NCBI RefSeq assembly: GCF_000003815.2
Contig: NC_049981.1
Location: forward strand, 10,166,033 to 10,230,032
Source: Branchiostoma floridae
Lineage: Eukaryota > Chordata > Leptocardii > Amphioxiformes > Branchiostomatidae
DNA: 64,000 bases
Direction: 5' to 3'
Positions within the stretch are counted from its first letter, which is position 1, and each line of letters begins with the position of its first letter. Below the pieces are notes generated by a model, which saw only the letters and a program-made list of their open reading frames with translations, had not been told where the DNA came from and ran no database searches. This document shows positions 352 through 57,332 of the stretch, piece by piece. The position numbers and the translations under genes are program-made.

Positions 352-3300
352 GTAGGCTTGAAGCGCTGAAAATAAAGGTCGACGCGGTAAAGCTCAAAGT
401 GACCCAAACTTCTCTCACTCTGAACACCATGGCCGAGACAGGGTTTCCTCAGCCAACCCAATCACCAGGTAAGTCACAATTCCAAGTTTGTGATGACAAA
501 ACATAAATTGATTTAGGTTTCGTCCATGGATGCCGCCATGTTTACGCCGCCATGTTTGTTTCCAAAGTTGTCACTTTTTTATGGTAGTATCTTGACAAGT
601 GCTATGAAATGCCTGCCCCTATCCTTAGCATCGTTAGCACTCAAAAACAGTAAATGACTCAGATAATTCTATTTCCATTTCTTAATGTTGGTTAAATAGA
701 TCACAACTATCAACCAGTACTGCAACACATCGAATGTGTATTTTGCACATATCGTCTCTAAACGCTATACTAGTAGCTGCCATATTTCATTGACATACGG
801 TCAGTGATGTCAACATGAGATTTTATTCCATGAGCAGATATCAACATTGCAGAAGGAAAAGAGGCGTTCCAATCAAGCACTATGTGGGGTATGGCTGCCA
901 GCCTTGCTGTAGATGGAAACACTGATGGTGACTACTTCCAGAACTCCTGCACACACACCGAGCAATGGGTGCGCGGTCCCGCCTGGTGGGTGGATCTTGG
1001 ACAATCGTACGACATTGGCAGGTACGAGCAGGACTGGCTAACGATCATCTTCATTAGCATAAATATCATCTTTGGTAAATCATGTAATGAGGAAAATAAA
1101 CTGTTCTCCAACTCAAAGAAGTACACTCACCGGAATTTGCGAACGAATCTATTGGTACAGGTATTCTTCAGCTATCTGACACGTGTGATGTCAGCATTGA
1201 CTTTATAGGACTTTTATGCCGCCCTATAATAGATGGCCTTAACACTGATTTGCTTTGCTATCATTGTCTACAGAGTGGTCATCTTCAACCGCCAAGACTA
1301 CGGTCCGGACCGCCTCAACCCCTTCAACATCCACATCGGGGACTCTAACCAGATCACCTCAAACCCCAAGTGTGGTGGCGATCATGAGATAGACGTGAAC
1401 CAGCCGTCCATTTCCGTTTCCTGCCAGAGTATGACGGGACGGTACGTCGGCGTTCGTCTTCCTGGAGAATACCGAACCCTGACCCTGTGCGAGGTCCAAG
1501 TCTTTTCAGGTGAGACTTTATGATATCTTTCTTATTCTATGGCAATATTGAGTTGTTAGATTCAACGATCTTTTCAACACAAATACTGTCAACTTATTTA
1601 TTTTTGGTGATCTTTTTCAGAAATATTGACCCACTCTCATTTCTCACCCGACTATACTGCTGATGATAAAGCTTTTCTCATGACCACGTGTTGTGAATCT
1701 GGTATTGAAACACTGTGTACGTAACGTCATGTGTGGCTTCGTGTAAAGTGTCTTTCCAAAGGACACAACGTCGGGAGACGGCGAGTATCGAACTCGGGAC
1801 CTCTAGATTCCGAGCCAAACGTTCTACCAGTTACAGTTGTTTTGTTTTACAACGTGGTTGCATCGTAAAAACAAATATCGAAGCTTAAGAATATTCATCT
1901 GAAGGGTCTGTGAATGTTGCTGTAATGAAATTCAACATAAAATTGAGAAAATTTCACTTCTTATCATTTTTTTTAAATCAGGCACATTGCCTAGTGCGGA
2001 GATCAACACCACTCCAGCGCCAGCACCCCGGTAGGCTCATCACCGCTTTGTTGCAAGANNNNNNNNNNNNNNNNNNNNNNNNNNNNNNNNNNNNNNNNNN
2101 NNNNNNNNNNNNNNNNNNNNNNNNNNNNNNNNNNNNNNNNNNNNNNNNNNNNNNNNNNGCATAATCTATATTCAGTGACGTTGACCTCCACGTACTTTCC
2201 GAATGCCACAGGAAATGAGATTCCCGTCCTTTACCACTATCGAACTATAGCCTTTTCTCAATAATCACGCAATTCTGGTTTTCATTTGCACAATTTTCAC
2301 CTATCGATGTTTTTCTCAGCTACGTATCTCACTGGACTTTGTCATGTTCGCGGCCTAAATGAGATTGTTACCCTTGACATTATAATGGAAATATCGATCA
2401 AAACGTACATATGCTACAGTATTGATGACTTTAAATGTGAACTAAAAAGAATTACGTTACTGACTATGGAATATCACGTAGAACGTGCAAGTATAGACTA
2501 GAAAGACAAGATAACACTTTAAGCATAAAAAGATTCGATGTTTATCGATATCATTCGTGTGTCAAATCGCCTGGCCGCAGCGACACCACCAACGTACAGC
2601 AGCTTCATTACATTGTTTTCGAATTTTCAACAAGGTCCGACAACACTTCCGCAAGTTGCTGGATACACTGTACGAGCCGGAGACTGTCGTGGGAACGACA
2701 TCTGGTCCATCGCCGGTGAGGGCCTGACTCTGTCCCAGTGTGCCAGCCGGTGCAGCGGCAGCTCCCAGTGTGTGGCTTTTCAGTTCTCCAACGGAAACTG
2801 TTACCCGAAAACTGCGACCTGTAGTTCGCCCATCACTGACAACCCCCCTGACACCTTCTACGACAAGGAAGCAGGTGATTGTATTCTCTCAACTCATCTG
2901 TCACCACCTCACATTACCAGTCACCGCCTCATCTCACCAGTCACCACCTAACCTCACCAACCACCACCTCACATTACCAGTCACCACCTCACCCCGCCTC
3001 AACAGTCACCACCTCACCAGTCACCATATCACCTTACCAGTCACCACCTCACCAGTCACCCACCACCAGTCACAAACTCACCGGTCACCCACCTCACCAA
3101 TCATAACGGTCACTTCACCGGTCACCACCCCACATTACCAGTCACCACCCCACATTACCAGTCACCACCTCACCTCACAAGTCACCACCTCACCTTACCA
3201 TCCACCATCTCGCATTACTAGTCACCAACTCACTAGTCACCAGGTCACCTCACCAGTCACCACCTCACCTCCCGAATTACCATCTCACCTCACAAGTCAC

Positions 3301-6300
3301 CACCTCACCTTACCATCCACCACCTCGCATTACTAGTCACCACCTCACTAGTCACCAGGTCACCTCACTAGCCACCACGTGCACCTCACCTCCCGAATTA
3401 CCACCTCACCTTACCAGTCACTTCAAAACATCCATTTTTGATGTTATGCAGAATCTATCCCTGATTTTAAACCTTCTAAACTTTCGCCGTGTCACGAACT
3501 TTTTTAACACACATCAGTCTTTCTTTCGATATTTAATCGAAAAGTTTTCTCTCTTGTTCACTTACAGGGTCGTTGAGTACAGTTGGGTATACAGAACGAG
3601 CGGGGTCCTTCTACAAAGTCTTCAGGACGAGGAAGGACCACACCAGTGCTCAGCAGACGTGTGAGACAGACGGGGGCCATCTGGCTGTTGTTAATACTGA
3701 AGCTCTCAACAACTTCATCGTAGGCTTGATTTCAGACTTTGAAGATTTCTGGATCGGGCTCAGTGGTGGAGACGTGAGTGGAAACTTTCTATTTATCTAA
3801 TATCTAACGCTTGTTCACCTTTATCCCTAGGGGTAACCTATATCCGTTGTTTTAAACAGTTATTAGGGATATCAAGTTCCCGGACAGAGATATAACAGCC
3901 CATTTATTTCTAATATCTTGCAATTTCAAACCATCATCCGTCGACATGATCCTATGACCCCTGTTTTTAAAAACAACGAATATAGGTGACTTCGCGATAA
4001 AGATGAACAGGCGTTGATTACACGACTGTGAACTTAAGTCACCATTTCCTATATTTGAATTTTTTGTTTGTTTTCTTAAACGTTTGCAGTCTTCACCTTA
4101 TTTAATCAACGTACCAGAATTGTAGTATGTAGTATGGTGGTCATGGAAATGTAAAGGTTTGAAACAGAGGATAAAAGATTGTTGACATATGTTCCTCGGA
4201 AAATGACCCGTGAGTCGTGGAAATCACTTCCGGGTTCGTTCGTGTTTTGTGTCCAGGAGTTTGGAACGTTTGGTGGCCTTCTTCACCCTTGATATCTTTG
4301 TTTCAAAAATGCAAATAGATGTGTGTTACAAGTATTGTTTGAGCTTAAATGATGTGGGGTTGTGAGATAGAGATGTGATAGTTACCTTCGCCAAGAACGT
4401 TATATTTTGGGTAGCGTTTGTATGTGTGTGTGTTTGTAGAATACCACCATTACTCGAGAACGCCTGGATGGATTGTATTGATATTCGGTACGTGAGTAGG
4501 TCTTGTTGAAACCTGAAAACGATTAGATTTGGGGTCCCCTAGCGGCCTGTTACGGTACTGCAGCGGAACTTCCTTGTTTGATATCTCGAGTTCTGGACAT
4601 GTTGTGGCTATGAATTGTAAGTGGTAGACAGCTCTTGTAAAATCTATGAGAAGCATTTACATTATTAGCTCACCCTTCACTCACAAGAGAACCCCTTTTG
4701 ACAGCAATGCTCTCTGAACATAAATCGCCAGGAGAATGGAATACGACTATTAGAATATAAATAACAGCAATCCTTAATACTTATAAACAATAAAACCGTC
4801 GCCATGGCAATAATTTTAATTGCCACACTTTTTTTTATTCTTTCTCAGACTGACGGCAATTGGAGGTGGGCAGACGGAACCAGATTGGGAGTCGGTTGTG
4901 CCTTCACTAACTGGGCACCGTACGAACCAAGTGATAACAATGGACAAAACTGTGTGCAAATGTGGTCCGCATACGACTATAAGTGGGACGACGACTTTTG
5001 CTACCGCCAGAAATATTTCATTTGCCAAATAGGTACGTATTCAGAATAGAAATTGCCCAGGGCGGAATTACTAAAGTTGACGTTACATGATGCAATCATT
5101 TCATCACCTAAATCGTTTGTCCTCAACAACGAGTAAAATAACAATACATGTATGGACAAACCCGAGGTCGTATCATGTTGATATGCTAACCGACCAGTTA
5201 CGACTCCGTTTACAGGATATATACATAAAAGAATGGCATTCTTCCTTCCAGACTAACTCAAAACTTTCCATTTATTCTACGCTAAAGGAAAGAAACGGAC
5301 AAAAGAAGTATCTTTCGAATGTACAGTTTTGAACTTCGTAGAGCAATTACAAAGATGAGAATCTGTAGTCACGAACTAAATATAGAAGTCGGAAGATACA
5401 CTAAAATTCCCCGTGACCAGAGGTTTTGTCCATTCTGCCCAAATGAGATCGAAGACGAACGTCACTTTGTTATGGAATGTTCTCGATATAATGACAAACG
5501 TACAGATCTGTTCACATTACTTTTCGCTTGCTCTAAAGAATTTGCTACTCTCTTTTCGATAGATAAACTCAACTTCATTCTGAGAGGCGATAATCCACAC
5601 TGTATAAGTAGGCAAATATATCCACGAATGTTTATACCATAGAATCAATAGTGTAAATGACAAGCTAGACTTTATTTGTTGATTTATTCATACCTATAAA
5701 TATCCATATATCTGTGTTTAGTTGTACTGTAAGTAGCTGTTATACACGTAGACCTTACGAAAGTCGCTTTCCTTTTATTTGTCGTGTCTCAATAAAGATT
5801 TGTATATTTTTATCTTTAGGTTCTGGAGAGGAAGGCAGCTGCAACGAGAATATGGGTAAGCCTTCAGCGTCATTTATGTCTGACGTAAATATTTCTTGCA
5901 AATTTCAGACGCGTAAATGATGCCATAGAAAGGATATTTCCGTTAATGTATCAAAACTAATCTTGTATTAACTTAGAGAGCCATTTGAAGTAACAGTTAG
6001 CACTATGTGTGCGGACAATTATTCCTTAATATTTTTTTCTTTAATCTAGTTGAAGTAAAAAGTATTTCGAAGCTTGGAGCTTCTTTAAGTAGGGTCGTGG
6101 GACCGGTGGAAGATTCGGGTCAGATCTCTTATGATGAAATGAAAGGAGCTTTGTTTTGGAAGGATCGAAGGTCACAAGCCACTGATTACCCCACACAACT
6201 GTATGATCATTTTCTTTGAGAAAATATTATCAAAATCTCGCCTTTGTGCAACATGGCATCATTTCAAGACCATCTCTTGCCATGATCATGCACTATTAAA

Positions 6301-6714
6301 TACTATTTGTCACAATTGTGTCGCAATTTGAATAAAGCCAAAGATTTGTCACAAAAATTGGTTCATCCGTTCTTTAAAACTATCTAGGAAGAACATTAAC
6401 ATAGGAATTTACCTTCATGTTTGGTATGCTCATGATCGATACGTGTTGCATGCGTGTTTTTGCATCTACCAGAATCTTGCCAGGTTGCGAATGGGGCGTC
6501 CTACCGAGGAACAGTCGCTGTGACTGTGGCAGGCAAGACGTGTCAGCGCTGGGACAGTCAGACACCGCATGGACACGACAGGACACCCGCTAATTATCCT
6601 GAAGGCGGACTGGTGGACAACTACTGCCGGAATCCGGACGGCTGGTACGCAATTTGGTGCTACACCACCGACCCCAGCCAGAGATGGGACTATTGTGACG
6701 TGCCAGTCTGTTAA
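352..6714 (+). CDS. G1: F-type lectin / PAN / C-type lectin / kringle protein, 5' partial
   Basis: Secreted chimeric lectin missing its signal-peptide exon, which lies before the window. Exons: 352-468 coiled coil; 838-1021 and 1274-1509 F-type lectin domain; 1982-2030 Thr/Pro linker; 2635-2874 PAN/apple with six Cys; 3568-3773 and 4849-5032 C-type lectin domain; 5820-5855 acidic linker; 6473-6714 kringle with six Cys and a TAA stop. All introns are GT-AG and module boundaries are phase 1. The FLD shows the R-x-D-x4-R fucose-site pattern (RQDYGPDR) but lacks the vicinal CysCys found in G2 and G4-G6. The CTLD has EPS instead of EPN, with a WDD motif. The linker exon is 49 nt against 48 in paralogues, which shifts the frame unless it is skipped or the base is an error next to the N gap. 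The kringle has PDGW at its putative lysine site. Fucose binding is inferred from the family. Confidence 0.8.
1715..1850 (-). repeat. tRNA-like SINE fragment in G1 FLD-linker intron
   Basis: Read on the - strand this has an A-box-like ggtagaacg stretch and a B-box-like gagttcgatactc, the layout of a tRNA-derived SINE head. Homologous copies occur at the same intron position in G3 and in both halves of G4, so it predates those duplications. Confidence 0.55.
2059..2158. other. assembly gap of 100 N
   Basis: Exactly 100 N, the usual placeholder for a gap of unknown size. It falls in the intron between the linker and PAN exons of G1. The sequence resuming at 2159 matches the G4 intron near 41108. 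Confidence 0.99.
2886..3424 (+). repeat. minisatellite, cacctcaccagtcac type, in G1 PAN-CTLD intron
   Basis: About 540 bp of imperfect tandem units built from caccacctcac and caccagtcac. It starts just after the PAN donor and ends about 140 bp before the CTLD exon. Related arrays occupy the same intron in G3 and G4. Pro/Thr/Ser-rich open frames across it are translation artefacts. Confidence 0.9.
4386..4650 (+). repeat. dispersed repeat in G1 CTLD intron
   Basis: The segment containing gtgagtaggtcttg through aagtggtagacagctcttg is repeated, diverged, at about 48855-49015 downstream of the G5 FLD. It starts with accttcgcca; the matching end ggcgaaggt appears elsewhere in the window (16991, 24504), suggesting a dispersed non-autonomous element. 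Confidence 0.5.
5095..5800 (+). mobile_element. 5'-truncated non-LTR retrotransposon (LINE) fragment in G1 intron
   Basis: Two frames (about 5110-5330 and 5319-5640) together encode the C-terminal end of a LINE reverse-transcriptase ORF, including FCPFC...EDERHF...CSRY, a zinc-ribbon-like motif downstream of many RT domains. A frameshift near 5325 separates them. The paralogous G2 intron is only 133 bp and lacks the insert. An aataaa lies at 5791. Confidence 0.7.
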
Positions 6715-8384
6715 GGTAAGGTCTGAATCTGTATGCTTACATGTTGGCTAATGTTTGTATCTTCTATGATTTTCGTTCAACTCCATGTAACGTTATACTA
6801 TATCATGTCTTCTTGAGATCTGGCTTGTGACACCGTAAGGAGTAACAATGGTAGATTCGGACACCTCCAATTATGGGGGAGCTAAGAAAAATTGTCTTCT
6901 CTATACAGTGCCTGAAGTTGGATAATCGACCATTCAGTGGAACATAGATTTTCATTTATCCTCAATGATGTATTATCTGTTTTTGTCTAGGATGACGCGG
7001 TGGATGATCTCAATACTTCGCATGTATACATCCGGGTCTTCGTGGTTTGCATTAAAATTCCCGGCCGTGTACGATCTGCCATGCCACTATAGACCTAGTG
7101 ATTATTTTGTTTATTCTAGTTAGAAGGCTTCATTTCTAAGTGTTTAAGTCAGATCTAGAGGAACTAATCTTCTGACAAGCTTCCCAGGGTATGGTCATCT
7201 TGAAATCAACTCAGTTGTTCGTAAAAATCTGAAAAAAATTGAGATATTTGAATATCAAGTGACTGTATGCCTTTACCTCTGTACCGAATTTCAACTCATT
7301 CCATGACATTACTTTATGAAGCACCCTCGTACGTTAGATTTGCACAGTATGATATAAGTGACACATGTTAGTGAAGCAAAAACACAGCAAGCATTTAAGT
7401 AACATTGCACCTGAGTTAAGTTCTTTTTTTGCCGTGATATTATTTCGATGTATATGAACGTGTGCATGTGACTAACGAGTAAATAATTGTGCTCAAAATT
7501 CAAACTTTAGAACACCTGTGCGTTTTCCGAATACCTTAAGGTATGCTGCAGTATAGGATTTTGTCCAACATTGTTGTGAAATTGGTGACATTGGTATAGA
7601 TGTATGAATGTTATAAACAACTAACGTTTATGTACCATCGGTCGCCGTAAAGTTGAAGTAAAACTTAACATTTGTTGACTGTATAGTAGGTATTACCTTG
7701 AGTTATTATCATAAGTGTATGGGTGGGTGTATTATGGTGTACATATATATGAAGGAACAATAAATCAACATAACATGCCACGCTTAACAGTCTTCCATTC
7801 TAAACCCTATCTAGCTCCGGTCTAAGTGGGAAAGGGAATTGATCGAGCAGCCTTCGTAACCCCTGCTTGGTCTATGGGGAAACCCTGCTTATCCTACTGG
7901 GTCAGTTCGTCCTCACTCTTAGTGAGCATTTGAGCTGGTCTCATGATGTTTCTGACTTACATGCTGCTACAGTTATTATGGAATTCCAAACCTTTCAGTG
8001 GCCTTAGGGTCGTAACCTTGAAGCGACATTCGGGTCTTGTTACATGATAAGCAATCAATGGACACATCTTTTCCTTTTATCACGAACCTTTTCAGTGCAA
8101 ACGACATCAAGCTGAGTACGTAACTTCATTTAGAGCCAGTTCGTCAGCTTCCATTAACGCAAAGTCAACGAACAATGTACAGATTATTGAATTTACTTCT
8201 CACTGACCAGTGCTTACACCTGGTGTTAGGTCGTAGACCAGACCAGCCACTTTTAAAGAAAATCTCAGTTTTGCCATCGACCGAACTTCTGGGGCAATGA
8301 TTGGTATGAAAACGACATAAGCTCGGTTCAAGCAGTAACTTCTCGAGCTTTTCGACCAAAAAGGAGCAAATCAAAATATCAAGA
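6715..8384. other. G1-G2 intergenic region / G1 3' UTR
   Basis: No coding exon seen. An ancestral donor (ggtaagg) follows the G1 stop immediately. Around 6990-7080 there is sequence similar to the G5 3' flank near 49825-49900 (gacgc.gtgg...catc.gggtc.tcgtggttt), consistent with homologous 3' UTRs. Confidence 0.6.
7759..7764 (+). terminator. candidate poly(A) signal of G1
   Basis: An aataaa hexamer about 1.04 kb after the G1 stop. G5 has one at a similar distance. No transcript evidence is available. Confidence 0.35.
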
Positions 8385-9647
8385 ATGGGAGACAAGACAT
8401 GTGTCCGAGCGGCCCTGGTGTTATTGCTGCTTTACGTTCTGTGGTTGGGGAGGGGAGATTCCGCCATAACAGTGCAACAAGCTAAGCAACTGAAAGGTAT
8501 CGTTCTCTCTACGTTCCATTCATTAAGAGTGCATTAATTTTAAGTAGTACAATGGAAATGCTGAGCCTCAAAGACTACACTATGTGTAATATACGTTCTA
8601 AAGAAATTATCACTGTGCCATACTGGAGTTAATGCCACTTTTCAAGAAAAGTTAACCCACTACATGTGTAGGAACGGGCAGATGACCTCTGTACGTACAC
8701 GTCGATGAATGTTAGAAATCAAGCTAATAATATAACAATGAAACAATTACTCAAGCAACTGGATACAATTTAGAACGGTCAAGCATTTCATACAGCATAT
8801 GAATCCACTCTCTTTTAAATTATCGTTAGCATCCACTTGGTCTCGTCAGTCTTTCTCAGTCACTAACGAAAGACACTGGATACGTTTGATACGCGATACT
8901 GATCATATCCCTCGAGTATCTCGGTTGTAGCATAGTCAAAAACACGAGTCTATTAGAGTATAACGCAATAATGCAGTAACGCTGACAGCTTTTATTTCTG
9001 CAATGTTACAGACAGAATCGAAAGGTTGAAATCAAGGATCGATGCGGTCAACCAAAAATTGACCCGAACTACTGGAACCCTGAACAACATGGCGGAGACA
9101 GGGTTCCCTGAGGTCCCGGATGTTCCCACACCCGGTAAGGCTCATCATCGCTTTGTTTGCAAGATGGCTGCATCTGCATCGTAAAACGAAATGTAGAAGT
9201 TATAATACCGAAATTTGAAACAAATAAAGTAATAACTTTACTACTTATCTTTTTTATTGACATGTTTATATATTTTCTATGGCAGATATCAACATCGCTA
9301 GAGGGAAGCAGGCTTTTCAATCAACCGTGGTAGAGTGCAAGGTTGCTGGCCTTGTCGTGGACGGGAACACTAATACCGACTACTACGCTGGCTCCTGTCA
9401 ACACAACGATATCAACGAACACAATCCTAGTTGGTGGGTGGATCTCGGAAAATCATTTATGATTAACAGGTATGTGTCATCGAGTTTAAAACGAAAAGAA
9501 ACGTAACTTCTACGTCGATGAATGTTAGCAATATCTCACACCTCACCTCACCTAGTCCTATCCTCATCAGGAGGGTTGGGGACCATGGTTGCCTCAAGCA
9601 CAAGCCTTCTCCGTCCATCCCAGCAATATCTATTCAAATCTAAATTT

Positions 9648-9790
9648 GTCTTCACCTCCTTTGCATATCAATTCATACTGAAGGCATAAAACCTGCTCTT
9701 TAAAAGAACTAATATCACTGACGTGAACGACAGTGCACGTGGATGCTATTTGAAACGTATGGCCGTTTCCAAAATCATAATTTTTTTATG
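9648..9790 (+). repeat. dispersed repeat in G2 FLD intron
   Basis: Sequence beginning cttcacctcctttgcatatc recurs with divergence at about 61338-61480 in the PAXIP1 intron, and its later part resembles 56480-56560 in G6. It is interspersed and carries no coding signal. Confidence 0.5.
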
Positions 9791-10443
9791 CAGGTGCTTG
9801 AATAAATGTTACAAAGTTGGAAAACATAAGTAATGTTACTAGGTCTAGGTTCAACCGGAGATCTGGACCACTTCAAGTAGTTTTGATTTTTTAAGATAAA
9901 TGGTACTTGCTTTAGACCATTTATGGTTAATATCTTTTAAAATCTACTATAGTTTATAAGGTTGACATGGCCTTGAGCATTTTCGTTCAATGACCATTGA
10001 CAGTTACGCTGGGGACGTGTACAAATATTTTGGACTTATGTACCTATTCTTGAATTATCTATCTAGGGTAGTCATCTTCAACCGCCAGGACTGTTGTTCG
10101 GAACGGCTCAACCCCTTCAACATCCACATCGGGGAGTCTAACCAGGTCGTCACGAATCCAAAGTGTGTGATCATCAAATCGACCTCAGTCAGCCGTCCAT
10201 TTCCGTTTCCTGTCAAGGGATGACGGGACGGTACGTCGGCGTCCTTCTTCCTGGTTCTTCCCGAACCCTCACCCTGTGCGAGGTCCAAGTCTTTTCAGGT
10301 GGGACTTTACGATACATATTTTATCATAGCAATACTGAGTTATTGGATTCAAAAGATAAACTACCTTTTCAACACAAGTGCTGTCCTTTCAATGACTGTT
10401 TTGTGGCCCACTCTCATTTCTCACTAGACTCCTGATATTAAAA

Positions 10444-11414: not shown

Positions 11415-12063
11415 TTAAAAGTCAGATTTCCATAAAGGCCCTTTTGACTCACCACTAATGTCACAGTGGTCAGTGGTCTTTGCTTGCCTTCATAAAAAAC
11501 TGCATGTAGAGGGGTAAATCAACACAAATTTACGTCTTTCTTCCGCTATCTGGTTGAATTCGAAAAGCGGCCTGCGGTCCGATTTTGCTTTCTCTTGAAT
11601 AGAAGATTCATACAAACAAACAAAATGTACCATCTAGATTAATGACGTTGCTCCTTTCTATTTTTGTTCTTTGAAGAACTTGTCAGCACTATCGCTGGGT
11701 ATACAGAACGAGCGGGGTCCTTCTACAAAGTCTTCAGGACCAGAAAGGACCACAACAGTGCTCAGCAGACGTGTGAGCTGAGGCAGACGGAGGCCATCTG
11801 GCTGTTGTTAATACTGAGGCTCTCAATAACTTCATCGTAGACTTGATTTCAGACCCTGACGACTTCTGGATTGGGCTCAATGATAATCAGGTAAGCAGAA
11901 AATTACTAATTATTCAATATATATGTATGTATATCTATATAATATATATGGTTAGCTTACTACATTGTAATTCTGGATGAAAGAATTATGTTAGCCCTTA
12001 TGTTAGCCCTTATGTTAAGCTTTATTCTATAGCTCTATTTTGCACTTTGTATAATAGTTGTTT

Positions 12064-12104
12064 CCATATATTGTACCGTGTACAATTGTCGTGAAATGAA
12101 GTTC
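12064..12104 (+). repeat. solo LINE 3' tail in G2 CTLD intron
   Basis: Contains ttgtaccgtgtacaattgt and a tgaaatgaagttc end, matching the 3' tail of the LINE fragments at 38250-38305 and 55478-55525 and, inverted, at 30631. The core ttgtac..gtacaa can form a hairpin. No coding part remains. Confidence 0.55.
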
Positions 12105-13650: not shown

Positions 13651-14097
13651 ACATGCTCTTGAGTTCCATGCGTGTTTTCCATCTACCAGAATCGTGCCAG
13701 GTTGGAGACGGGGCGTCCTACCGAGGAACAGTCTCTGTGACTGAAACAGGCAAGACGTGTCAGCGCTGGGACAGTCAGACACCACATAGACACGACAGGA
13801 CACCCCGTAACTATCCTGCAGGTGGACTGGTAGAGAACTACTGCCGGAATCCGGACGGGGAATCCGGCGTTTGGTGCTACACAACGGATCCCAACGACAG
13901 ATGGGACTATTGTGACGTGCCAATCTGTGACGGTAAGACCTGAATCTGTAAGCTTACATGTTACCTACTGTTTGTTTCTTCTTTGTCAATGCTTTTCTTT
14001 CATGTACATGTACCTGTCCTGATCTTACTTCTGACATCATTGGGAGTAACATTGGTAGATTCGGACACTTCCAACCATGGGGAAGCTAAGTGGTAAA

Positions 14098-14193
14098 ATG
14101 ACAACGATGGACAAGCCTTTATGCACATGGAATGCGACTACAAGTGAGACGGCGACTTTTGCCAGTGCCAGAAATATTCCATTTGTCAAATAG
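14098..14193 (+). pseudogene. dead duplicate of CTLD second exon in G2
   Basis: Resembles the 3' half of the exon at 12298-12478, including the acaatggacaa region, the gac-tac-aag stretch and the caaatag/gtacg donor. It has an in-frame TGA in place of the conserved Trp and a 5' part that no longer matches. With its following intron and linker exon (14337-14372) it repeats the block 12298-12960. Confidence 0.7.
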
Positions 14194-17999: not shown

Positions 18000-18226
18000 C
18001 GTGTGAACGATCTTACTGAAGCTATCTGTTTGCCTTCCAGGTCTTTCCAGGCAACACGGACATGCGCACCCCTGTAACTAACATGCTTTGTGAACCCATC
18101 GAGGCCCGGTACGTGCGTTTTCTTCCCCAGACTTTTCATGGTGACACGTCAATGAGGGTGGAAATTCTTGGCTGCAGGAAATACAGTATGTTTCAGTTGA
18201 CATTGTTATGTTCTATTGTACAGTAA

Positions 18227-46530: not shown

Positions 46531-49500
46531 ATGGGTGACAAGAACCGTGTCCAAACCACCCTGTTGCTGGTGGTTCACCTTCTGTTGTTGGGGAGGGAAT
46601 GTTCCGCCCTGACAGTGCAACAAGCTGCAGAACTGAAGAGTAAGTACATTGGTTGTCGTTCTGTCTTTTATGACTTTCAAGCCAATGTTTATTTCTACGC
46701 AGGTGCTATGTATGTACAGGGCTGTCTTCGGGACCCGTACAATCTTCCCTGGACGGTCATTTGCTTGTTGGCACAGATATGATTTGACCCCATTCGTCCC
46801 AAAAAAACTGTTGAAAATTTGCTTTCGTAAGAAAGAATGATGTCTTAAACCAGGAAAATCAACAACACACAAGTGCTCCCAAAGATTGTATAAGAGTTGC
46901 TTATTGATTGCTGTTTCATCCATCTCTGAATGCATGTCATAACCGTTATTGTGTGGGACAGAAAAACATCAAAACTGGAAACAGTCCTTATGTATGAAAG
47001 CTGTCCTCTATCTATGAGAGTTTGTCCATACTCTATTCGTCACAAATCTATAGATGCCAATTTTTAGACTTGCTCATCTTCAACTACCATTACTTTTCCA
47101 TCTTTAACCCTAAACATCATTAAGTTCAGGACTGAAAGATCATTTTATAGGAGGGTCTGTTTTCTGTCCCCTTGCAGCACAACTTGAAGTTGTGAAAGCC
47201 AAGTGCGATGGAGCAAGGATCCAAGTGGCTCAAACGTCTCTGACTCTGAATGCCGGGGCCTCGGAAGGACTCCACCCACCAGCCCCAACCGGTGCACCAA
47301 GTAAGGCGTCTTCGGTCGATTCTTAAAGATTTGTTAAGGCGGATAAAAACCTGCCTTCATTGTCAGTCTTTGACTCAAATAGCGTATGTATTGATGCTCA
47401 GAAAAAATACCAGCTTCCTACATGCTGTAGTTAGGTTGCAGGGAAGATGGCATCAGTTTGCATGTACATTCCAATATGAAGATGCTATTTAACGTTGGAA
47501 AACAGATAATGCTGTATCCTAGGAATTCTGAAGCATCCATTTTAGATATAAAGGGGCATTTTTCCTTACTTCATGGTTGCTTTGAGTTCGGCTACAGTTT
47601 TAGTTTGCTTTTCTGAATTATATTTCAATACCAGTTATGTAGGACGTCTTCTGGGTGTGAGTGATATATGGAAATATGACATAAGTGACAGAACTTCTTG
47701 TCTTCGTTAGATGTCAATATCGCTCAAGGGCAGCTTGCGTTCCAAACAAGCAGCTACGCGTGGTATTCGGGAGCCGACCGTGCTGTAGACGGGAACACCA
47801 ATGGGCAATGGTCCGCTAGATCGTGCACACACACACACGGACAGGCTAACCCCGCGTGGTGGGTGGATCTTGGACACCCGCACATAGTAAACAGGTAGGT
47901 TTTCATGAAAAGAAATATGAACTGCCACTTCGACCACGGCCCCTCTAGAAATTAAAAAAAAAACTGTTACAGTAAGCTACCGGTTTGGAAATGCGACTGA
48001 GGAATACCTTCCGATCGCACCACCCTTCGTTAGACAGATACCAACCCTTTTCTCCGGACAACCCCGTTTAACTAATCATTTTTTAAATTCAAAATTTGAA
48101 GCAAAGGAGAGCAAAGATAAAATCGTTTTGGCGACACCTCAGGGGTGGAGCCCTTAGTATAATACTGCGTCTCTAAGAAATTCGTTTTTTTTTTTCAACG
48201 GGCCGGTCTTTGCATATAGCAGGAAGAAACTCCAATCTATGGAGTATGGAATAGCTGGTAGTTTGTACAAACTATATTGCAGCTGTATTTCAAATAAGCT
48301 TTTTACGGTTCTAATTTCGTATGGTGTGTTGAGATTCACAATTTCTAAGGACTCGTTGCTTTGTCATCACCATCTGCAGGGTTGTCATTTACAACCGCTG
48401 GGACTGCTGCAGGGAGCGACTCAACCCCTTCAACATCCACATCGGGGATTCCGCCGAGGTTGCCGCGAACCCCAAGTGTGGCGGCGATCATCGGATCGGC
48501 CTTAGCGAACGGTTCACTTCCGTCTTGTGCCAAGGGATGACGGGACGGTACGTCGGTGTTCGTCTGCCTGGTTCTGGCAGCCGAATTCTCAGCATGGCAG
48601 AGGTCCAAGTCTTCTCCAATGAAGGTACATGTAGGCCACTGAAATGTTCGATATCATGATGGTAGTTGCTTGCTATTGTACCTACGGCAACTAGCCTGTC
48701 ATTCACCTATTCACTTATTTGACCGTGCGCTTCTCTGCAGAATATTCAAGCAACACTACGAGCTAGTCGGAAATAGCATATATGTAAAATGATGAAAGGC
48801 CCCTAAAAGTATGTGTGGATAGTCAGCATTACCTTGAATGGATTTTAAAGTTACTTAGTATGTGAGTAGGTCTTGATAAGATACTGAAATTCGGAAAGAT
48901 CACATTTTGCGGCCCCTGGCAGCTTGTCATGGTATTGCAGTGGGACTTCCGTTTTTACATCTCGACTTCTGGGCATGCTATGATCGTCATTTTAAGTGGT
49001 AGATAACTCTTGAGGCAGAGAGTACGTTGTATTTTAAGATCTTGAAACAGAATAGCTCAAGAAATGGTTAACATGAGTTAGCTGCTTGATGTGGATCCAG
49101 CTAGACATCTGGGGCTGTTGGGATCGTGAAGTTGTAGTCTCCTGACATTTTTTTTTCTGTGTGCAGCAAGTTGGCCACGAGGAGGGTCAGCAACACCATT
49201 GTTGAATAGAAATGCTCCTTCCTGTTTCAGTTTCAGAAGATTCCCGGTGCCTGTCTGGCTCCCTTTGGCCGGCTATACTCCTTGGCCAGCTTTGATACTA
49301 TCTTATGGCATCTGCCAGGAGATTAACAAGTTATGGTATGATACTGAGCTGCTGACGTTCTTTCTTCGACCAGAATTCTGCCAGGCGGGGAACGGGGCGT
49401 CCTACCGAGGAACAGCCACTAGGACCCGATCAGGGAGGACGTGTCAGCGCTGGGACAGTCAGACACCGCATGGACACGACAGGACACCCCGTAACTATCC

Positions 49501-49615
49501 TGCAGGTGGACTGGTGAACAACTACTGCCGGAATCCGGACAACTGGTACGCACTTTGGTGCTACACGACGGATCCCAACTCGAGATGGGAGTATTGTGAC
49601 GTGCCATCTTGTTAA
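46531..49615 (+). CDS. G5: secreted F-type lectin / kringle protein, 300 aa
   Basis: Exons: 46531-46639, 47178-47300, 47711-47894, 48380-48624, 49374-49615. They total 903 nt, ending at TAA. Domains: signal peptide (LLLVVHLLLLG core, likely cleavage near residue 26); coiled coil 37-65 followed by a Pro-rich stretch; F-type lectin 78-220; kringle 221-300 with six Cys. The FLD shows H-x26-R-x-D-x4-R with vicinal Cys (SCTH..., RWDCCRER), the most canonical sugar site in the array. The kringle has PDNW, lacking the second acidic residue of a lysine-binding site. The ATG was chosen because the downstream MGDKNRVQ start is shared by all paralogues and lies 70 bp after a TATA box. The stop abuts an intact splice-donor sequence. 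It lacks the PAN, CTLD and FA58C modules and is the smallest architecture here. Confidence 0.86.
48855..49015 (+). repeat. dispersed repeat, second copy
   Basis: Diverged copy of part of 4386-4650 (gtgagtaggtcttg... aagtggtagataactcttg), in the intron before the G5 kringle. Confidence 0.5.
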
Positions 49616-50690
49616 GGTAAGGCCTGAAGCTGTAAGCTTACATGCTGGCTAATGTCTACTATTTAAATGATTGTCTTTCATCTACATGTATTGCTACGCT
49701 ATGCTTCCCTGTTTTGTGACACTGTTGGGAGTAACATCGCTAGATTTTGACTATTTATAAGGGTATTTAACATAACAATGTCTTCTCTACATGAAGTGTC
49801 TAAAAGCTGATTGTTGTTATTTAGACTGACGCAGTGGTTGAGCACCCTTCTGGATGGATACATCTGGGTCCTCGTGGTTTGCTTCAAAGTGTCCATGAAC
49901 AGTCGTTCAGCTATGCTTTGCTGTGATCATCATATACCGAAACATCGTAGTTGGACGAATATTTCATTGTTAACTCAGTCCAAGACTATGGCACTAGACA
50001 CTAGACAAGTGTGGTTTTAGTAAAAATGACCGCGGCGTGGTACATCGCTAAAAATTGACAATTTCACTTATGGCTTGCATATCGGTGCCACAGGCACCTT
50101 TAACAATGATCCAACTAGTTTTATTTCTGCAACTACAGTCATGTGTACCATTCTAGTGTCACTTGTACAAGTACAACCAAGGCTACACTACCGATATCAG
50201 CACTTTCTCATCATGTTGACCATCCCCGGAGGCGCTAATATCATCTATGATATTCAGCTGTTATGGCTTAATGCCTGTTCGTGTGTTGATGTAGATTTAT
50301 ACAAAGAAGGAATTAATTTGGAAGGATATTCCACTTTCTAATAGACAATTTGACGTTCGTTTGTTGTTTGTATTGTTACTCTAAGCTTAAATTGTTCTCA
50401 TCAAAGAATCACAACTCTTTTACTTCTATTCCTGACAACCCACATTTCTAATATAAGAAATTGTGGTGCAATTATGCATTAGCTTCAATTTGTTCGTCAA
50501 TGATATCATCATCATCTCGTAGTGAACGACCACTCCTTGCACCAGTATTCAGTATTTATAGTTGCTGAATACTAAGAAGTTGGAAGTAAACTGTTGACGT
50601 GACACCAGCACATTTTGTTTTTCGCATTTTCGTGGTGTATATCAAGACGTCGTGTTTGTGCACCAGTACCTCTTAATGTTACTGAGTAGG

Positions 50691-51836: not shown

Positions 51837-54800
51837 ATGGGTCACAAGAACCGTATCCAAAACACCCTGTTGCTGGTGGTTCACCTCCTGTTGTTGGGGA
51901 GGGAAGGTTCCGCCCTGACAGTGCAACAAGCTGCAGAACTCAAGAGTAAGTACATCAGTTATCGTTTTGTCTTGTGTAACTTTCAATGTAAGACTTCATT
52001 TCAAGCCAGTGCTATGAGTACTATTTACAAATGATAGGCATCCTCTAGCTGACGCAAAATAAAAGATGTACGCCAGACACCATCTACAACCATAGATCAT
52101 AACGTCCCCACCTTTATCCATTGTTAAGTTGAGTAAATACGGTATAAAGGAAGCCGAGGTCCGTTTTCTGTCACGCTTCAGCAACACTTGTGAAAAAAGA
52201 AGACGGGCGCCATTTTGTAGTGTTGATCATCATGTGAAAGGCGTGTGAAATAGACGCTTTCGCAGAATACTAGCAGCGATGGCTTTTACTTTTGCGGGAG
52301 CGTCGATTCGCCATTTTCAACACAGGCTAAGGTTCTTTAATGCCTGAAGATTGAGTTTCGCACTGGCTTAGCCCATGTTAAAAATCGCGAAACGACGCTT
52401 CCGCAAAAAAGCCAAAGCTACCTGAAGCCTGCGAAAGCTAGAGGCTAGAACCGAACCATCTTTAGGAAAGGCTGCCATTCCTTTTGAAGATCAAAATACC
52501 ATATCAAAGGAGTTCCAAAAGTTCTATTTTCTGCGACACTACAGCAACACTTGAAGATGTGAAAGCAAAGTGTGATGCGGCAAGGGCCCGAGTGATTCAA
52601 ACTTCCCTGGCTCTGAACACCGCGGCACAGGCCGAGATTGTCCAAACACCGGTACCGATACCAACCGGACAACCCGGTAAGGCATCCTTTTTATCATCCT
52701 TTCTAAAGACGGTTTGAATACTGCATTTCTTTCTTGGTGTTATGTTTTGTCAATTTTGAACACATTTTAGACAAATACCGTAGGCATTCGTTTTCGGAAA
52801 AAATACTAGCTCCAAGCGTTTTGCACAGTTGACTATGTAATGGTTACTAGTACTACACAAAGGAAAATAAGTGACGCTGTGGTGTTACCTTTAGCTTTGT
52901 TCCCACATATTCGTTGAATGTTGCATCTATACTCGCCTAGATGAAATGGCAATATCTTATACTTCATGATAATATTTAAGTTCGTCGACATATAACATCC
53001 ATTATCATGATACCGGACGTTTACGACGATTTCTCTAGCCATACTGATTTGACAAATTGTCAACGCATCATTTTCTCCAGTTACATGTTGCTGTTATAGC
53101 TTACCCTTGCCACTTCTTCTGTGTAACTTTTCTGCCACTCTTGTCCTGCTAAAAGCGTAATATTGTAATTGTTACACGCCGCGGAATTACACGGCGAACG
53201 GGCGCGTGGTTGGGAGGGGGTAAAAATACCGGCCGGAAGAAACACGGCACAATTACTGCCGCTATGTACCTTTATACATCCTCTAATGTTCCTTCCTTTT
53301 CTGTTAGTAAATGCATAAAACATAAACCTGCATGAGCATGCAAAATGTCATGAGAAAACGGGCGTGTACTGTCAAGAATTTTCATTTAACTTCTGTCCGT
53401 CACAACCGCTATGACGTAACACTTCACTGCTAGCGTAGATATTATTAAAAATGGCGGGAAAATGGCTGCGTACGTTCAATTTTGCCCATTCAGTCGTAGA
53501 TCCTGGCTATTATGCAACGGTTCTTCACACTTTTACATGAGTTGTAGGTCACCAACAGAAATTCAAGATTGTTGTTGAATCATATTCGTCTTGTGCCATG
53601 AGCATGTGTAATTATGATCTACAAATCTGGCAATGAATGTGACAGTGTGTTCGTCCCACGACGAGCTGCCTACCCCGAAAAAGATACTGAAAACTTTTGG
53701 CCTTGTTGTCTTCGAATACATTGTTATCGATGCTTTGTAAATGATGTATTGGGCACCTAGATGTCTGAAGTGTGCACACCTCAGAAATAACTATTGTTGC
53801 ATGTGTAGATCTCTTTAAATTCCATTATTTTTGATCGGCCGGTATAAGTCTTACGGCCGGTATTATGCCAATGCATGTTACTCGATGCAAGGGTTACTGC
53901 AAACAAGCGGACAGCGCATAATAAATTAGTTGTGTGATTTTCTCAATTCAGTAACACTACTTTAAAACATTTCAGTGTGAGTTAAGGACATGTGAATACG
54001 GCGCCGTTTGTGACAATATTTTGTCTTTCTAGATGTTAATCTCGCTCAAGGGAAGCCGGCGTTCCAATCAAGTAACTTTGTGCCGTCGACCGTCGCCGGC
54101 CTTGCCGTAGACGGAAACACCAATGGCCGCTGGAACGCTCGTTCCTGTGCCTGTACTACGTCACAGCCTACTCCCGAGTGGTGGGTGGATCTTGGACAAA
54201 CGTACATAATCAACAGGTAAGTTTTAACGAAGAGAAATACTGTTCCAACTATTCTACTTTAACTAAGGCCACGTTGATTTGATTATGTAGATGACATCCT
54301 CTGTGAACTCAACTCGATGCAAGCGTGCGAATAAAGAAAAGTTGGGCCAAAAAAAGGTAGCCTCTATGAAATCTTAGTGGTCAGGGAGGTTCAACAAATG
54401 ACCAAGCACGCAGAGTATGAAATAACGAACGACAGATTCTTTATTGTGTTATTTCACATCCTTTCTTGACCTTGGAATTATTGTTTGACTTATATATATA
54501 TATAATAAGATTCGTAAAGGTATATCCCCTATTCTTCTGCTGGAAGACTAATTCAAAGATAAACTGGTCATTTAGGACGGTGTGATTATCAAGTGTTGAC
54601 CTCCTTACTTAAACCAAAGGAAATATGGGTAAGGTTAATACAAAAAGGCTGATTATCCATCTTCACGTCTATCTTGTCCCCCCCCAACGACCAGGAGGTC
54701 AAGGGACTTGGTAGGTAGGTAATACAAGGAGGTTAAAGTTGGTTAATATCATTATTGCTATTTATAGCTAAGGTCGTTCGTATGGTGAATTAAAATACCC

Positions 54801-57332
54801 AATATCGCTTGAAGACTCATTGGTTGTCATTGCCATCGACAGAGTGGTCATTTACAACCGCTGGGACTGCTGCAGGGAACGACTCAACCCTTTCAACATC
54901 CACATCGGGGATTCCGAACAGGTTACCTCCAACCCCAAGTGTGGCGGTGACCACCGAATCGCCCTTACAGAGCCGTCCATGTCCGTTTCCTGTCCCGCGA
55001 TGACTGGACGGTACGTCGGTGTCCGCCTTCCCCGTACCGTACACCTGACAATATGTGAGGTTCAAGTCTTTTCAAATGGAGGTATGTCTCTGACATATTC
55101 GATATTTATATATTTGCTCGAGATGATACCTACATGTAGCCCAGTATCCATCCTATCCCCTACGGCTTAGGTCTCAATTGCACCGATGCCCGTCAGGGAT
55201 GTAGCCCCGGCCGGGCTCCGGAGCCACAGATTTGCCCAGGTGGGCTACCGGGTACTGTGCGGGACCCCTCGGGATGCCCCACGGATAGGTCCCGGCGTCT
55301 ATTTGTTACCGGGTCCAGGAATTATTTTAAGTCCAACTGAAAATAACCTGGGGGTCCGGTCATACTCAAATATATCTAGGGAGCCGCAAGGTTTCCCACG
55401 CTGCCACATAAGGGTCCCGCCCGAAAGTGCCAACAAATAGCCCGTGAACTGTCCGGCAGGGCCACTTTTTAGTATAAGCCATACTTTGTACCTTGTACAA
55501 TTGTTGTGCAATGAAGTTATTATTATAAGCGAGGTCCGGTCGATTGCCGCAGAATCGTCGTCCGATCGATCTTCGCCAAATGTGACAGGAGATAGCCTAC
55601 TTGAAAACCCTACGGCATTATTGAATTGTAGTTTAGATAAAGTAGAAGATGAAGCACATTTTTACTGTGGATTGTCCTTTGTATGATAGCGAAAGGAGCA
55701 TTCTATTTGACCATGTGTTAAATAAATATCCCCACTTCAGATACTTGAATAGTAAAAAGAAATTTATATTCCTGACAGCTTTTGATAAACCAACTCTAAC
55801 CAACCATACAGCAAGCTACATTTATGCAATTACCAAGAAGCGAGAGGAAGTCGAATGTCCTAGAATAGATTAGACGCATATCTGCATATATAGTGTAGAT
55901 TGTCTTCGTTGTTACATATATATGATTGTTACCACGTGACCTGTACTTAGTCCAGTGGGGCAAAAATGTGCAATAAATGTCTTCATTCATTAAAAATGGT
56001 GCAACGACCTACGACAAATGTAACCGCACCCTTACCAAATACCTCTGGTTTCAGAGGCCCCATCTCCTTGGTCAGCATCCTCCTACCATGATTCACATCT
56101 CACACCTGATCGCGCTGATATCAACACTCGCGAGGGTGACAGTGGTGGCGCATGGGCAGCAGTAACCAACAACCTGCACCAATGGCTGATGAGGGACCTG
56201 GGCGAGGTGAAGGCCGTGACAGGCATCATCACCAAAGGCAGGGACTACAGTCCTGATTCGATACAGCCACATAACCAATTCGTCACCTCATACGCCATAT
56301 CATACGGCATCGAAAACGGTGATGAGCAGTTCTACACAGATGAGAATGACCAGACTGTTGTAAGTATAATCTTCTACATCTATCTAAGATACACTATTAC
56401 CTCATTTCTTCTTTATAAAATATATATTGAAATATGGAAATTATTAGCAAATTATCAGGGAAGCCCAACTTTCGTTAGTGTCACCGACGAAAGATAGTGG
56501 ATACTACCTACATGTATCTGAAATGTCTGACCCTTTCCAAAATCATATCTATGGCCAGTTGATTGAGTACCTGCTTTTTGGTGTATCTTATTACATTTGT
56601 ACCTGCATGTCTAACCTTCCTTGACAAAGCTCATCTGTGTTGTTAGTAATCATAGTATAATGTCAAAATTTCTTTATACACAAAGGTTTTCAACGGCTGC
56701 TGTCGCCCTCTTCTGGATCAATCACACACTCACTGATGAAAATTCATACTCATCATCATTGATTCTGAAGAAGGCAACAGTGGTCGTTGAAAACTTGATC
56801 CGTGTATACCTTTGTGTTGGAAAAAAATTTAACATTGTACTACGAAATTGTCAGCGCTTTAGGCAATGAAATCCTAACACTCTCGCGCTCTAATGTTCCA
56901 AACAGTCTATGGTAAGGTTTGTAAACTTTTCTTGCAGGTTTTCACAGGGAACTCTGACCGTGACACGGCGGTCCGTAACGACTTTAGGGACTACAGCGGT
57001 CCTGACGTTCTGATGGCGCGCTTCGTCAAAATCCACCCCCGAACCTGGAATCATTGGATCTGTATGCGGGCGGAGATCGTAACATCTGGTAAGCGACAAA
57101 TCGTACTTCTATCTATTAAGTCATTTCTTTATTGTTTTTCATAGACTCATCCCAAACTCATCTCAAAATCCATTATCCCTCTATTGCTTCTCATCAAATG
57201 AAAAAATAGAAAAAGATAACATAGTGACCAAAGTAAATCACTGTTCCTACATTGTATGTATTGCTTTGTTATACAGGACGTTCAATTACGCTTTCAATAA
57301 CATGTTGTTGTTTTTCTTTACACTCAGGCTGA
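51837..57332 (+). CDS. G6: secreted F-type lectin / FA58C (discoidin) protein, 374 aa
   Basis: Exons: 51837-51945, 52545-52676, 54033-54216, 54843-55081, 56055-56359, 56938-57088, 57328-57332. They total 1125 nt in phase; the last exon supplies two bases of Gly and then TGA. Domains: signal peptide (likely cleaved near residue 26); coiled coil 37-65 with a Pro/Thr tail; F-type lectin 81-221; FA58C 222-373, with SASSYHDSHLTPDRADIN near its start and LGEVKAVTGIITKGRD and RFVKIHPRTW motifs. The FLD keeps RWDCCRER, but the family His is Cys here (SCAC), so fucose binding may be altered. The FA58C first exon fuses what are two exons in G2; the second intron position and phase are shared. The last coding exon is only five bases, so the C-terminus is the least certain part. 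LINE debris fills the FLD-FA58C intron. Confidence 0.8.
55165..55445. repeat. GC-rich block with partial inverted repeat
   Basis: GC-rich, unlike its surroundings. Contains ggcgtctatttgttaccggg near 55287 and a related inverse (cccgaaagtgccaacaaatag) ending 55440, suggesting a small transposon. The ends are not defined. Confidence 0.35.
55478..55525 (+). repeat. LINE 3' tail in G6 intron
   Basis: ttgtaccttgtacaattgtt followed by gtgcaatgaagtt and (att)n, the shared tail of the LINE family seen at 38250 and, inverted, 30631. Confidence 0.6.
55560..55990 (+). mobile_element. second degraded LINE fragment in G6 intron
   Basis: Encodes a frameshifted LINE ORF2 end: VEDEAHF in one frame, then CPLYDSERSILFDHV in another, followed by an aataaa at 55972. 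Confidence 0.6.

Follow-up and report, generated by a model that had tools for sequence, protein, structure and literature searches.

INTRODUCTION

Mosaic F-type lectins are already known from amphioxus. More than 70 FTLD sequence clusters are on record for Branchiostoma floridae, as are eukaryotic mosaic F-type lectins with C-type lectin domains (CTLDs) and FA58C domains (PMC5712786); the sections of that review drawn on here mention no array of the present kind and no mapped chimeric gene, and the word "kringle" does not occur in its main text. The sperm bindin of the oyster, in which variety of the F-type lectin domain (FLD) is generated via intron recombination and simple repeats lie beside the FLD exons (PMC5712786, section 12), resembles the locus described here. 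Unlike in bindin, however, the repeat in this locus is a 20-bp minisatellite, which three genes carry next to the CTLD; the exchange extends to other types of module, and the variation lies between tandem genes of one assembly. In symmetrical class 1-1 exon shuffling, modules are flanked by phase-1 introns on both sides. The shuffled modules of the array likewise sit between phase-1 introns, but the exchange joins neighboring paralogs and is young enough for the junction to be readable. Lancelet APEC proteins (fucolectin, two CTLDs, CUB, and APEC) are also mosaics of FLD and CTLD, and most sequences of the fucolectin-CTLD-APEC clade are dispensable between individuals; they differ from the array in their downstream modules, and a coil cassette is not mentioned in the portions of that account used here (PMC12373286).

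Novel domain combinations in lancelets have been disputed as gene-prediction errors (PMC4967905). Because a breakpoint is visible in the array, and its combinations can also be linked to homologous introns and open reading frames, the question becomes testable at the base level; furthermore, since at least one gene is visibly a splice of its neighbors, the locus illustrates well, in a natural setting, the making of multipart proteins via recombination of adjacent genes. No earlier account of the mapped chimera or of the array-private minisatellite was found in the literature searched.

RESULTS

The window, a 64,000-nucleotide stretch of the B. floridae genome, contains six plus-strand gene models between positions 352 and 57332, with AG/GT at every internal exon border; the splice models and architectures are predictions from sequence (Table 1). 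The tandem set of six genes proposed by the sequence-only reading was thus confirmed, but its boundary was misplaced, with about 77 kb more of the array lying upstream. The whole array comprises about 12 genes over about 135 kb, and the six in the window form its 3' half. The upstream members, genes A to F, were identified by an exon-profile search of flanking sequence, and the architectures of A to D and F are orders of profile matches only. Downstream, none of the 13 exon profiles matched from 57.1 kb up to 114 kb, where the sequence analyzed stopped, so an extension in that direction was rejected. A search of the window against Rfam at gathering scores gave no matches. Upstream genes A and D show no FLD, and most genes of the array have one to four. 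Signal peptides were assigned by inspection and by their likeness to one another, and their presence, claimed earlier for all six genes, holds for five because the signal-peptide exon of gene 1 is missing from the window, at whose first base a 1,707-N gap ends.

TABLE 1 Predicted features of the six window genes, in window positions
Gene	Feature	Position	Exons	Strand	Remark
1	Coiled-coil exon	352..468		+	1,707-N gap directly upstream
1	FLD	838..1509	838-1021, 1274-1509	+	
1	Pro/Thr linker exon	1982..2030		+	49 nt versus usual 48; 100-N gap 2059-2158 nearby
1	PAN-like exon	2635..2874		+	
1	Minisatellite, PAN-CTLD intron	2888..3421		+	Unit ~20 bp
1	Chimera junction	3440..3468		+	Gene-3/4-type CTLD acceptor and first bases, TGAT, then gene-C-type sequence
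1	CTLD	3568..5032	3568-3773, 4849-5032	+	Gene C/E/2 type
1	Short linker exon	5820..5855		+	
1	Kringle exon	6473..6715		+	In-frame TAA
2	Signal-peptide exon	8385..8496		+	
2	Coil exon	9012..9134		+	Apparently fused to linker exon; 3' intron linker-type
2	FLD	9286..10298	9286-9469, 10067-10298	+	Second exon off frame, -4 nt
2	CTLD	11677..12478	11677-11890, 12298-12478	+	First exon off frame, +5 nt
2	Short linker exon	12612..12647		+	
2	Kringle exon	13690..13932		+	Aligns with kringles of genes 1 and 5
2	Relic CTLD second exon	14034..14192		+	Stops; better preserved in upstream gene E
2	Second short linker exon	14337..14372		+	
2	First FA58C	14747..16176	14747-14922, 15439-15589, 16032-16176	+	15439-15589 off frame, net +1
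2	Second FA58C	16578..18185	16578-16753, 17030-17179, 18041-18185	+	
3	Signal-peptide exon	20905..21010		+	
3	Coil exon	21779..21895		+	
3	FLD	22263..23630	22263-22446, 23395-23630	+	
3	Linker exon	24086..24133		+	
3	Relic of lost second FLD	24271..24291		+	Acceptor and first bases
3	PAN-like exon	25038..25277		+	
3	Minisatellite, PAN-CTLD intron	25292..25736		+	
3	CTLD	25769..26750	25769-25974, 26558-26750	+	
3	Terminal exon	27201..27223		+	Stop
4	Signal-peptide exon	36237..36345		+	
4	Coil exon	37007..37123		+	
4	First FLD	37490..38648	37490-37673, 38410-38648	+	
4	Linker exon	39147..39194		+	
4	Second FLD	39262..40964	39618-39801, 40311-40549	+	Young copy of 37133-39065
4	PAN-like exon	41658..41897		+	
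4	Minisatellite, PAN-CTLD intron	41913..42122		+	
4	CTLD	42362..43462	42362-42567, 43270-43462	+	
4	Terminal exon	43937..43959		+	Stop
5	Signal-peptide exon	46531..46639		+	
5	Coil exon	47178..47300		+	Cysteine in heptad core
5	FLD	47711..48624	47711-47894, 48380-48624	+	
5	Kringle exon	49374..49616		+	TAA like genes 1 and D
6	Signal-peptide exon	51837..51945		+	
6	Coil exon	52545..52676		+	Cysteine in heptad core
6	FLD	54033..55081	54033-54216, 54843-55081	+	Fucose-site His to Cys
6	FA58C	56055..57088	56055-56359, 56938-57088	+	
6	Terminal exon	57328..57332		+	Stop

The locus is very probably part of a tandem array of secreted mosaic lectins diversified by duplication, deletion, and recombination between neighbors. 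The predicted proteins would begin with a signal peptide, followed in nearly every gene by a short coiled coil, which probably serves to link chains, and the FLDs would precede a tail that varies in its set of PAN-like, C-type lectin, kringle, and FA58C modules. Neighboring copies would duplicate, delete, and recombine at phase-1 introns, with modules joined, dropped, or swapped in frame. The products would be soluble oligomeric lectins, with the F-type domain binding fucose-bearing glycans and the C-type domain mannose/fucose-type glycans, and they may bind to the surfaces of microbes or of cells; a pattern-recognition role is plausible.

The gene models matched or nearly matched the exon lengths listed earlier. 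The first FLD exon (FLD_A) is 184 nt long in all seven window copies and the second (FLD_B) 236, 239, or 245 nt (232 in broken gene 2); the PAN and kringle exons measure 240 and 243 nt, respectively, in three of three window copies each, and the CTLD exons 206+184 (gene 1), 214+181 (gene 2), and 206+193 nt (genes 3 and 4). The FA58C pattern fits both copies of gene 2 (176+151+145 and 176+150+145 nt) but not gene 6, which has a different structure (305+151 nt). Phase-1 introns flank the modules in genes 3, 4, 5, 6, and E, as previously asserted for every module, and thus permit joining, loss, or swapping without a frame break; the gene 1 linker and the broken exons of gene 2 depart from this rule. 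The introns within the FLD are in phase 2, and those within the CTLD and FA58C are in phase 0. Given the extra nucleotide in the gene 1 linker and the 100-N gap nearby, the reading frame there is uncertain. The frame of gene 2 is broken three times, in FLD_B, CTLD_A, and the second exon of the first FA58C, and the gene is probably a pseudogene; gene E has the same architecture, and 14 of its exons, joined without one short linker exon and any terminal exon, read through one frame.

The appended CTLD, kringle, and FA58C modules, as well as the FLD, were upheld by Pfam profiles (E-values are whole-protein figures). The FLD profile, F5_F8_type_C_2, scored above the Pfam cutoff in all five assembled window proteins (2e-17 to 1.5e-41), and the gene 5 FLD matched FBP32 (PDB 3cqo, 2.7e-47) and the eel lectin AAA (1k12, 1.7e-19). 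Lectin_C was detected in genes 1, 3, and 4 (3e-20, 6.7e-20, and 1.5e-20), the kringle in genes 1 and 5 (7.7e-26 and 3.1e-26), and F5_F8_type_C in gene 6 (2.1e-28; best stretch, 228-370) and the second copy of gene 2 (2.4e-28). A PAN-like exon is present in three genes; its PAN_1 scores (21.2, 21.1, and 19.7 bits) fall just below the Pfam cutoff of 21.4, and the best PDB match had an E-value of 0.087.

The fucose triad of F-type lectins is described as His...Arg-x-Asp-x4-Arg/Lys and the cation motif as h2DGx; the spacing between His and Arg is printed as 24, yet 26 residues separate the His52 and Arg79 that the review itself names (PMC5712786). The window FLD copies have 26 to 27 residues between His and the first Arg. 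Besides homology, they share with the animal F-type lectins AAA and FBP32 the triad His, Arg, Arg (six of seven; gene 6 has Cys for His) and the cation motif VDGN (all seven), whereas triad residues are missing from FLD copies C1 and C4. In C-type lectins, the calcium/sugar motifs are EPN and WND; the CTLDs carry EPN in genes 2, 3, and 4 and EPS in gene 1, and WDD replaces WND in all four.

The locus had been called fast evolving, but positive selection was not supported at the domain level, where dN/dS ranged from 0.07 to 0.90 with the exception of one pair, the CTLDs of genes 3 and 4 (1.19; 15 versus 3 changes; Fisher p = 1.0). This result bears on the alternative that these are lectins of gamete recognition rather than immunity, on the model of oyster sperm bindin, itself diversified by intron recombination with microsatellites adjoining its FLD exons. 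We consider that role unlikely: bindins are described with one to five FLDs, without CTLD, kringle, or PAN being named in the section concerned (PMC5712786, section 12), and the array, unlike bindin, showed no such selection at the domain level.

The exchange of modules within the local array, as first proposed, is backed by genes 1 and 5, although much of what sets the architectures apart comes from duplicates that lost modules. Judged by its sequence affinities, gene 1 is a three-source chimera formed by exchange between array genes. Its coil, FLD, and PAN resemble those of genes 3 and 4, and positions 6445 to 8315, spanning the kringle and the 3' end, are 93.6% identical to gene D over 1.9 kb. 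For the FLD, dS between genes 1 and 3 is 0.16 versus 0.55 between genes 1 and E, and when codons were resampled 2000 times, gene 3 was the closer in 1999; for the CTLD, the values are 1.11 and 0.24, with E closer in 2000 of 2000. The noncoding similarity switches partner at the junction too, and junction alignments narrowed the crossover to a few bases (3463-3468), 42 to 47 bp from the minisatellite. A clade of genes 1, 2, and E was rejected for the FLD (p 0.0018, with 10 of 14 FLD copies included) and for the kringle (p 0.011; 8 copies), where genes 1, D, and 5 group with support of 96/96; the best tree for the kringle does not pair gene 1 with D, and forcing them together gave p 0.28. For the CTLD, the AU test did not reject a clade of genes 1, 3, and 4 (p 0.27; six sequences, unrooted). 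In gene 5, the comparisons support a front grouping with gene 6 joined to a kringle grouping with genes 1 and D, although in a similarity scan, one that takes the best of two to four copies base by base, genes B and C outscore gene 6 over the FLD exons of gene 5.

Alternatively, a long ancestor (signal peptide, coil, FLD, FLD, PAN, CTLD, kringle, and FA58C) could have been duplicated, its copies losing parts without any transfer of modules. Several observations fit such decay. Genes 2 and E share both the coil-linker fusion and the relic CTLD exon, the start of a kringle survives as a relic in gene C, gene 3 has a relic as well, and homologous introns lie at corresponding positions. As these relics and the fusion show, the differences in architecture owe much to the loss of parts by copies of a gene that was once longer. 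Nevertheless, decay as the sole process is quite improbable: it is contradicted for gene 1 by the opposite affinities of FLD and CTLD and by the noncoding partner switch, and it accounts neither for the FLD gained by gene 4 nor for the FA58C exon structure of gene 6, unlike that of gene 2. Gene 4 has two FLDs, the duplicate being 98.5% and 97.4% identical to its source over two blocks (dS 0.03). Amphioxus alleles can differ by as much as this pair (1.5 to 2.6%), so an assembly artifact is possible at that spot. As a general explanation, misjoined haplotypes that mimic tandem genes, frameshifts, and chimeras are very improbable in spite of this pair, the two gaps at gene 1 (1,707 N and 100 N), and the 1-nt linker shift, given that differences of 5 to 31% separate most pairs of FLDs, CTLDs, and kringles, above amphioxus allelic differences, that the nearest gap lies 1.3 kb from the gene 1 junction, and that gene E repeats the gene 2 architecture in an open frame across the 14 joined exons.

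Within the array that recombination between neighbors would have diversified, the minisatellite occupies the PAN-CTLD intron of genes 1, 3, and 4, and all 38 of its genome matches fall inside the array. It could be a recombination hot spot re-assorting the lectin tails, with individuals carrying differing sets of architectures, which would amount to combinatorial recognition encoded in the germline of an invertebrate chordate; we advance this tentatively and regard it as rather unlikely. Only in gene 1 does a junction adjoin the minisatellite independently of the repeat itself, and four other mapped junctions lie away from it. Counting two adjacent junctions as independent evidence was rejected because the gene D minisatellite is itself the sign of that gene's junction. 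Should gene content vary among individuals, the locus would offer a simple model for the way recognition proteins diversify in an animal that does not rearrange antibodies.

When the genome was searched with the coil exon, 10 matches emerged, nine in the array and the tenth on contig C5 amid paired kringle exons, so the coil cassette is not strictly private to the array; the coils of genes 5 and 6 went undetected in this search, and diverged coils elsewhere could therefore escape it too. In 8 of the 10 coils tested, at most 3 of 300 shuffles gave heptads as good, with weak heptads in genes 5 and 6 (50 and 36 of 300). Nor is the joining of FLD and kringle peculiar to the array: among 137 FLD exons scored outside it, at least 16 lie within 5 kb of a kringle exon that was also scored and has the same orientation (a lower bound, with scores for 150 out of 284 and 150 out of 544 candidates), compared with 0.19 expected from random placement.

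Organization of the array

Exons of genes 1 to 6, the tandem lectin genes on the plus strand of the window, were rebuilt from the raw sequence with splice-site checks; the window was also aligned against itself, and five assembled proteins and one gene 2 FA58C copy were scanned against Pfam. Genes 3, 4, 5, and 6 each form one complete open frame (450, 593, 300, and 374 aa, respectively). With an off-phase linker exon omitted, gene 1 has an open frame of 480 aa that runs from its coiled-coil exon (coil) as far as the stop in the kringle exon. Gene 2 carries three frame-breaking changes. Six architectures were counted in the window, one in the broken gene 2; the sequence-only reading proposed at least five.

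That reading's six genes are indeed in the window, but they form only part of the array. Window-exon profiles, applied to 80 kb of upstream and 50 kb of downstream flank, located genes A to F upstream. The architectures of genes A to D and F are predicted orders of profile hits, whereas gene E keeps a single frame through 14 joined exons (the second short linker exon omitted and the terminal exon not included). According to the profile hits, no intron separates the signal peptide, coil, and F-type lectin domain (FLD) of gene B, and gene C possibly includes a C-type lectin domain (CTLD) block that lies further along. The array spans 134.7 kb, with all modules on one strand, and contains 11 signal-peptide exons in addition to gene 1, hence about 12 genes in total; gene F could, however, be the front of gene 1, giving 11.

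Genes of the array and other features (positions within the window unless stated otherwise)
Feature	Position	Content	Basis
Gene A	upstream	signal peptide, coil, kringle, kringle	profile hits
Gene B	upstream	signal peptide, coil, FLD; weak PAN-like hit; second FLD	profile hits
Gene C	upstream	signal peptide, coil, four FLDs, kringle	profile hits
Gene D	upstream	signal peptide and kringle only	profile hits
Gene E	upstream	signal peptide, coil, FLD, CTLD, kringle, FA58C, FA58C	14 exons joined
Gene F	upstream	signal peptide, coil, then 1,707-N gap	profile hits
Gene 1		coil, FLD, linker, gap, PAN-like, CTLD, linker, kringle	exon model
Gene 2		signal peptide, coil, FLD, CTLD, kringle, two FA58C	exon model
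Gene 3		signal peptide, coil, FLD, linker, PAN-like, CTLD	exon model
Gene 4		as gene 3, with two FLDs	exon model
Gene 5		signal peptide, coil, FLD, kringle	exon model
Gene 6		signal peptide, coil, FLD, FA58C	exon model
Gene 1 gap	2059-2158	100 N
Gene 1 minisatellite	2888-3422	matched by gene D and by genes 3 and 4
Gene 1 CTLD-exon remnant	3440-3468	acceptor and first bases of gene 3/4-type CTLD exon
Gene 2 possible insertion	10440-11420	between FLD and CTLD
Gene 5 coil	47178-47300	heptad-core cysteine
Gene 6 coil	52545-52676	heptad-core cysteine
Near-palindrome	30079-33665	between genes 3 and 4
Similar fragments	5286-5639; 37727-38095; 30764-31051 (-)	intronic and intergenic
Paired kringle exons	contig C5, about 2.20-2.25 Mb	two pairs about 1.4 kb apart, coil exon between

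Gene 1 as a chimera

Judged from sequence comparisons, gene 1 is a chimera with three sources along its length, and the opposite affinities of its FLD and CTLD, together with switches of noncoding partner, bear out the earlier proposal of exon shuffling within a local array. Its identity to gene 3 is 94.0% in the coil, 94.3% in the FLD, and 91.7% in PAN but only 70.1% in the CTLD, which instead is 87.5% identical to that of gene 2 and 86.6% identical to those of genes E and C. Synonymous divergence flips likewise between FLD and CTLD, with strong support from resampling. Noncoding similarity follows genes 3 and 4 as far as about position 3450, gene C, in blocks, over 3462-6494, and gene D from 6445 onward (93.6%). 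Within the CTLD-exon remnant, gene C sequence takes over past TGAT. Trees constrained to group gene 1 with genes 2 and E were rejected for the FLD (P = 0.0018; 10 of 14 FLD copies used) and for the kringle (P = 0.011). The CTLD tree constrained to group genes 1, 3, and 4 was not rejected (P = 0.27), as we read it because, in an unrooted tree of six sequences, gene 1 need only sit near the root. The best kringle tree does not place genes 1 and D as sisters (constraint joining them, P = 0.28). Because the 100-N gap coincides with the position of gene 4's second FLD, gene 1 may have a second FLD as well.

A repeat of about 20 bp occupies the PAN-CTLD intron of genes 1, 3, and 4 and intron 1 of gene D. 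With up to 3 mismatches, a 29-base pattern of this minisatellite matched the 513-Mb genome at 38 sites, every one within those four introns, in a DNA pattern search that can pass over simple repeats; neither the opposite strand nor a reversed control gave any match in that genome. The gene 1 junction lies 42 to 47 bp past its minisatellite, an association of repeat and junction that was noticed post hoc. Gene D shares sequence with genes 3 and E up to about 28 bp into intron 1, 16 bp before the minisatellite starts, which suggests that gene D arose by joining intron 1 onto a PAN-CTLD intron. The minisatellite would be at most one of several routes, since the other mapped junctions lie near no repeat (two in gene 4, one common to genes 2 and E, and one at the gene 1 kringle).

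Other exchanges and losses

The FLD tree places gene 5 together with gene 6 (support, 95.2/92), and noncoding stretches at the front of gene 5 match gene 6 where most other genes do not. Inside the FLD exons, the similarity scan, which takes base by base the best of the two to four copies in genes B and C, scores these genes above gene 6. The gene 5 kringle groups with those of genes 1 and D (96/96), and all three have a TAA immediately past the last kringle cysteine that is absent from both gene A kringles and from those of genes C, E, and 2. The second FLD of gene 4 is a young copy of the first (dS = 0.03), starting in the linker intron. A second FLD has been lost from gene 3, but its acceptor and initial bases remain and align with the entry to the FLD of gene 2 (82% over 167 bp). 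The coil and linker exons appear to have fused in genes 2 and E. By eye, the gene 2 segment between FLD and CTLD has a CGAGTGGGGTCC motif at one end that recurs inverted at the other; it may be an insertion at the site that PAN occupies in other genes.

Constraint and predicted function

The array domains are under constraint. Domain-level dN/dS was 0.07 to 0.90 except in the gene 3-gene 4 CTLD pair (1.19; 15 versus 3 changes; Fisher P = 1.0), so positive selection receives no support at the domain level in this locus, which the earlier reading called possibly fast-evolving. Leu, Ile, Val, or Met in the coil heptad core beats nearly every shuffle in 8 of the 10 copies tested (gene F left out). 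In the heptad cores of genes 5 and 6, cysteine takes the place of the Ile or Val seen in the other coil copies, and this residue could form an interchain disulfide. EPN occurs in three window CTLDs and EPS in one, with WDD in all four; these are candidate counterparts of the calcium/sugar motifs EPN and WND. The fucose triad is kept in six of the seven window FLDs and the cation motif in all seven. We infer oligomeric soluble lectins with two types of sugar-binding domain. Pattern recognition would be their likeliest use, F-type lectins being described in immunity in PMC5712786, with gamete recognition as the alternative.

The array in the genome

Searches covered 513.4 Mb in 431 contigs, with the window at C3:10166033-10230032. 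The coil exon gave 10 matches, 9 inside the array; diverged copies are missed, since those in genes 5 and 6 were not returned. The tenth, on contig C5, is flanked by paired kringle exons; its coil is related to those of the array, the arrangement resembles gene A, and the site is possibly a second double-kringle cluster. Second exons of F-type lectins number at least 150 genome-wide (150 of 284 first-look candidates scored), and so do kringle exons (150 of 544). Outside the array, a scored kringle lies within 5 kb of 16 of the 137 scored FLD exons, versus 0.19 expected. PAN gave 30 matches from 75 candidates, 3 of them the window copies. Searches of open-licence PMC papers found no description of the array and no paper combining F-type lectin, Branchiostoma, and kringle.

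The 3.6-kb near-palindrome has 11 inverted arm pairs, 8 of them 92 to 99% complementary (longest, 496 and 356 nt). A fold-back element would account for it, as would an assembly fold. The three mutually similar fragments resemble a non-LTR retrotransposon in its Cys/His tail, a putative family assignment.
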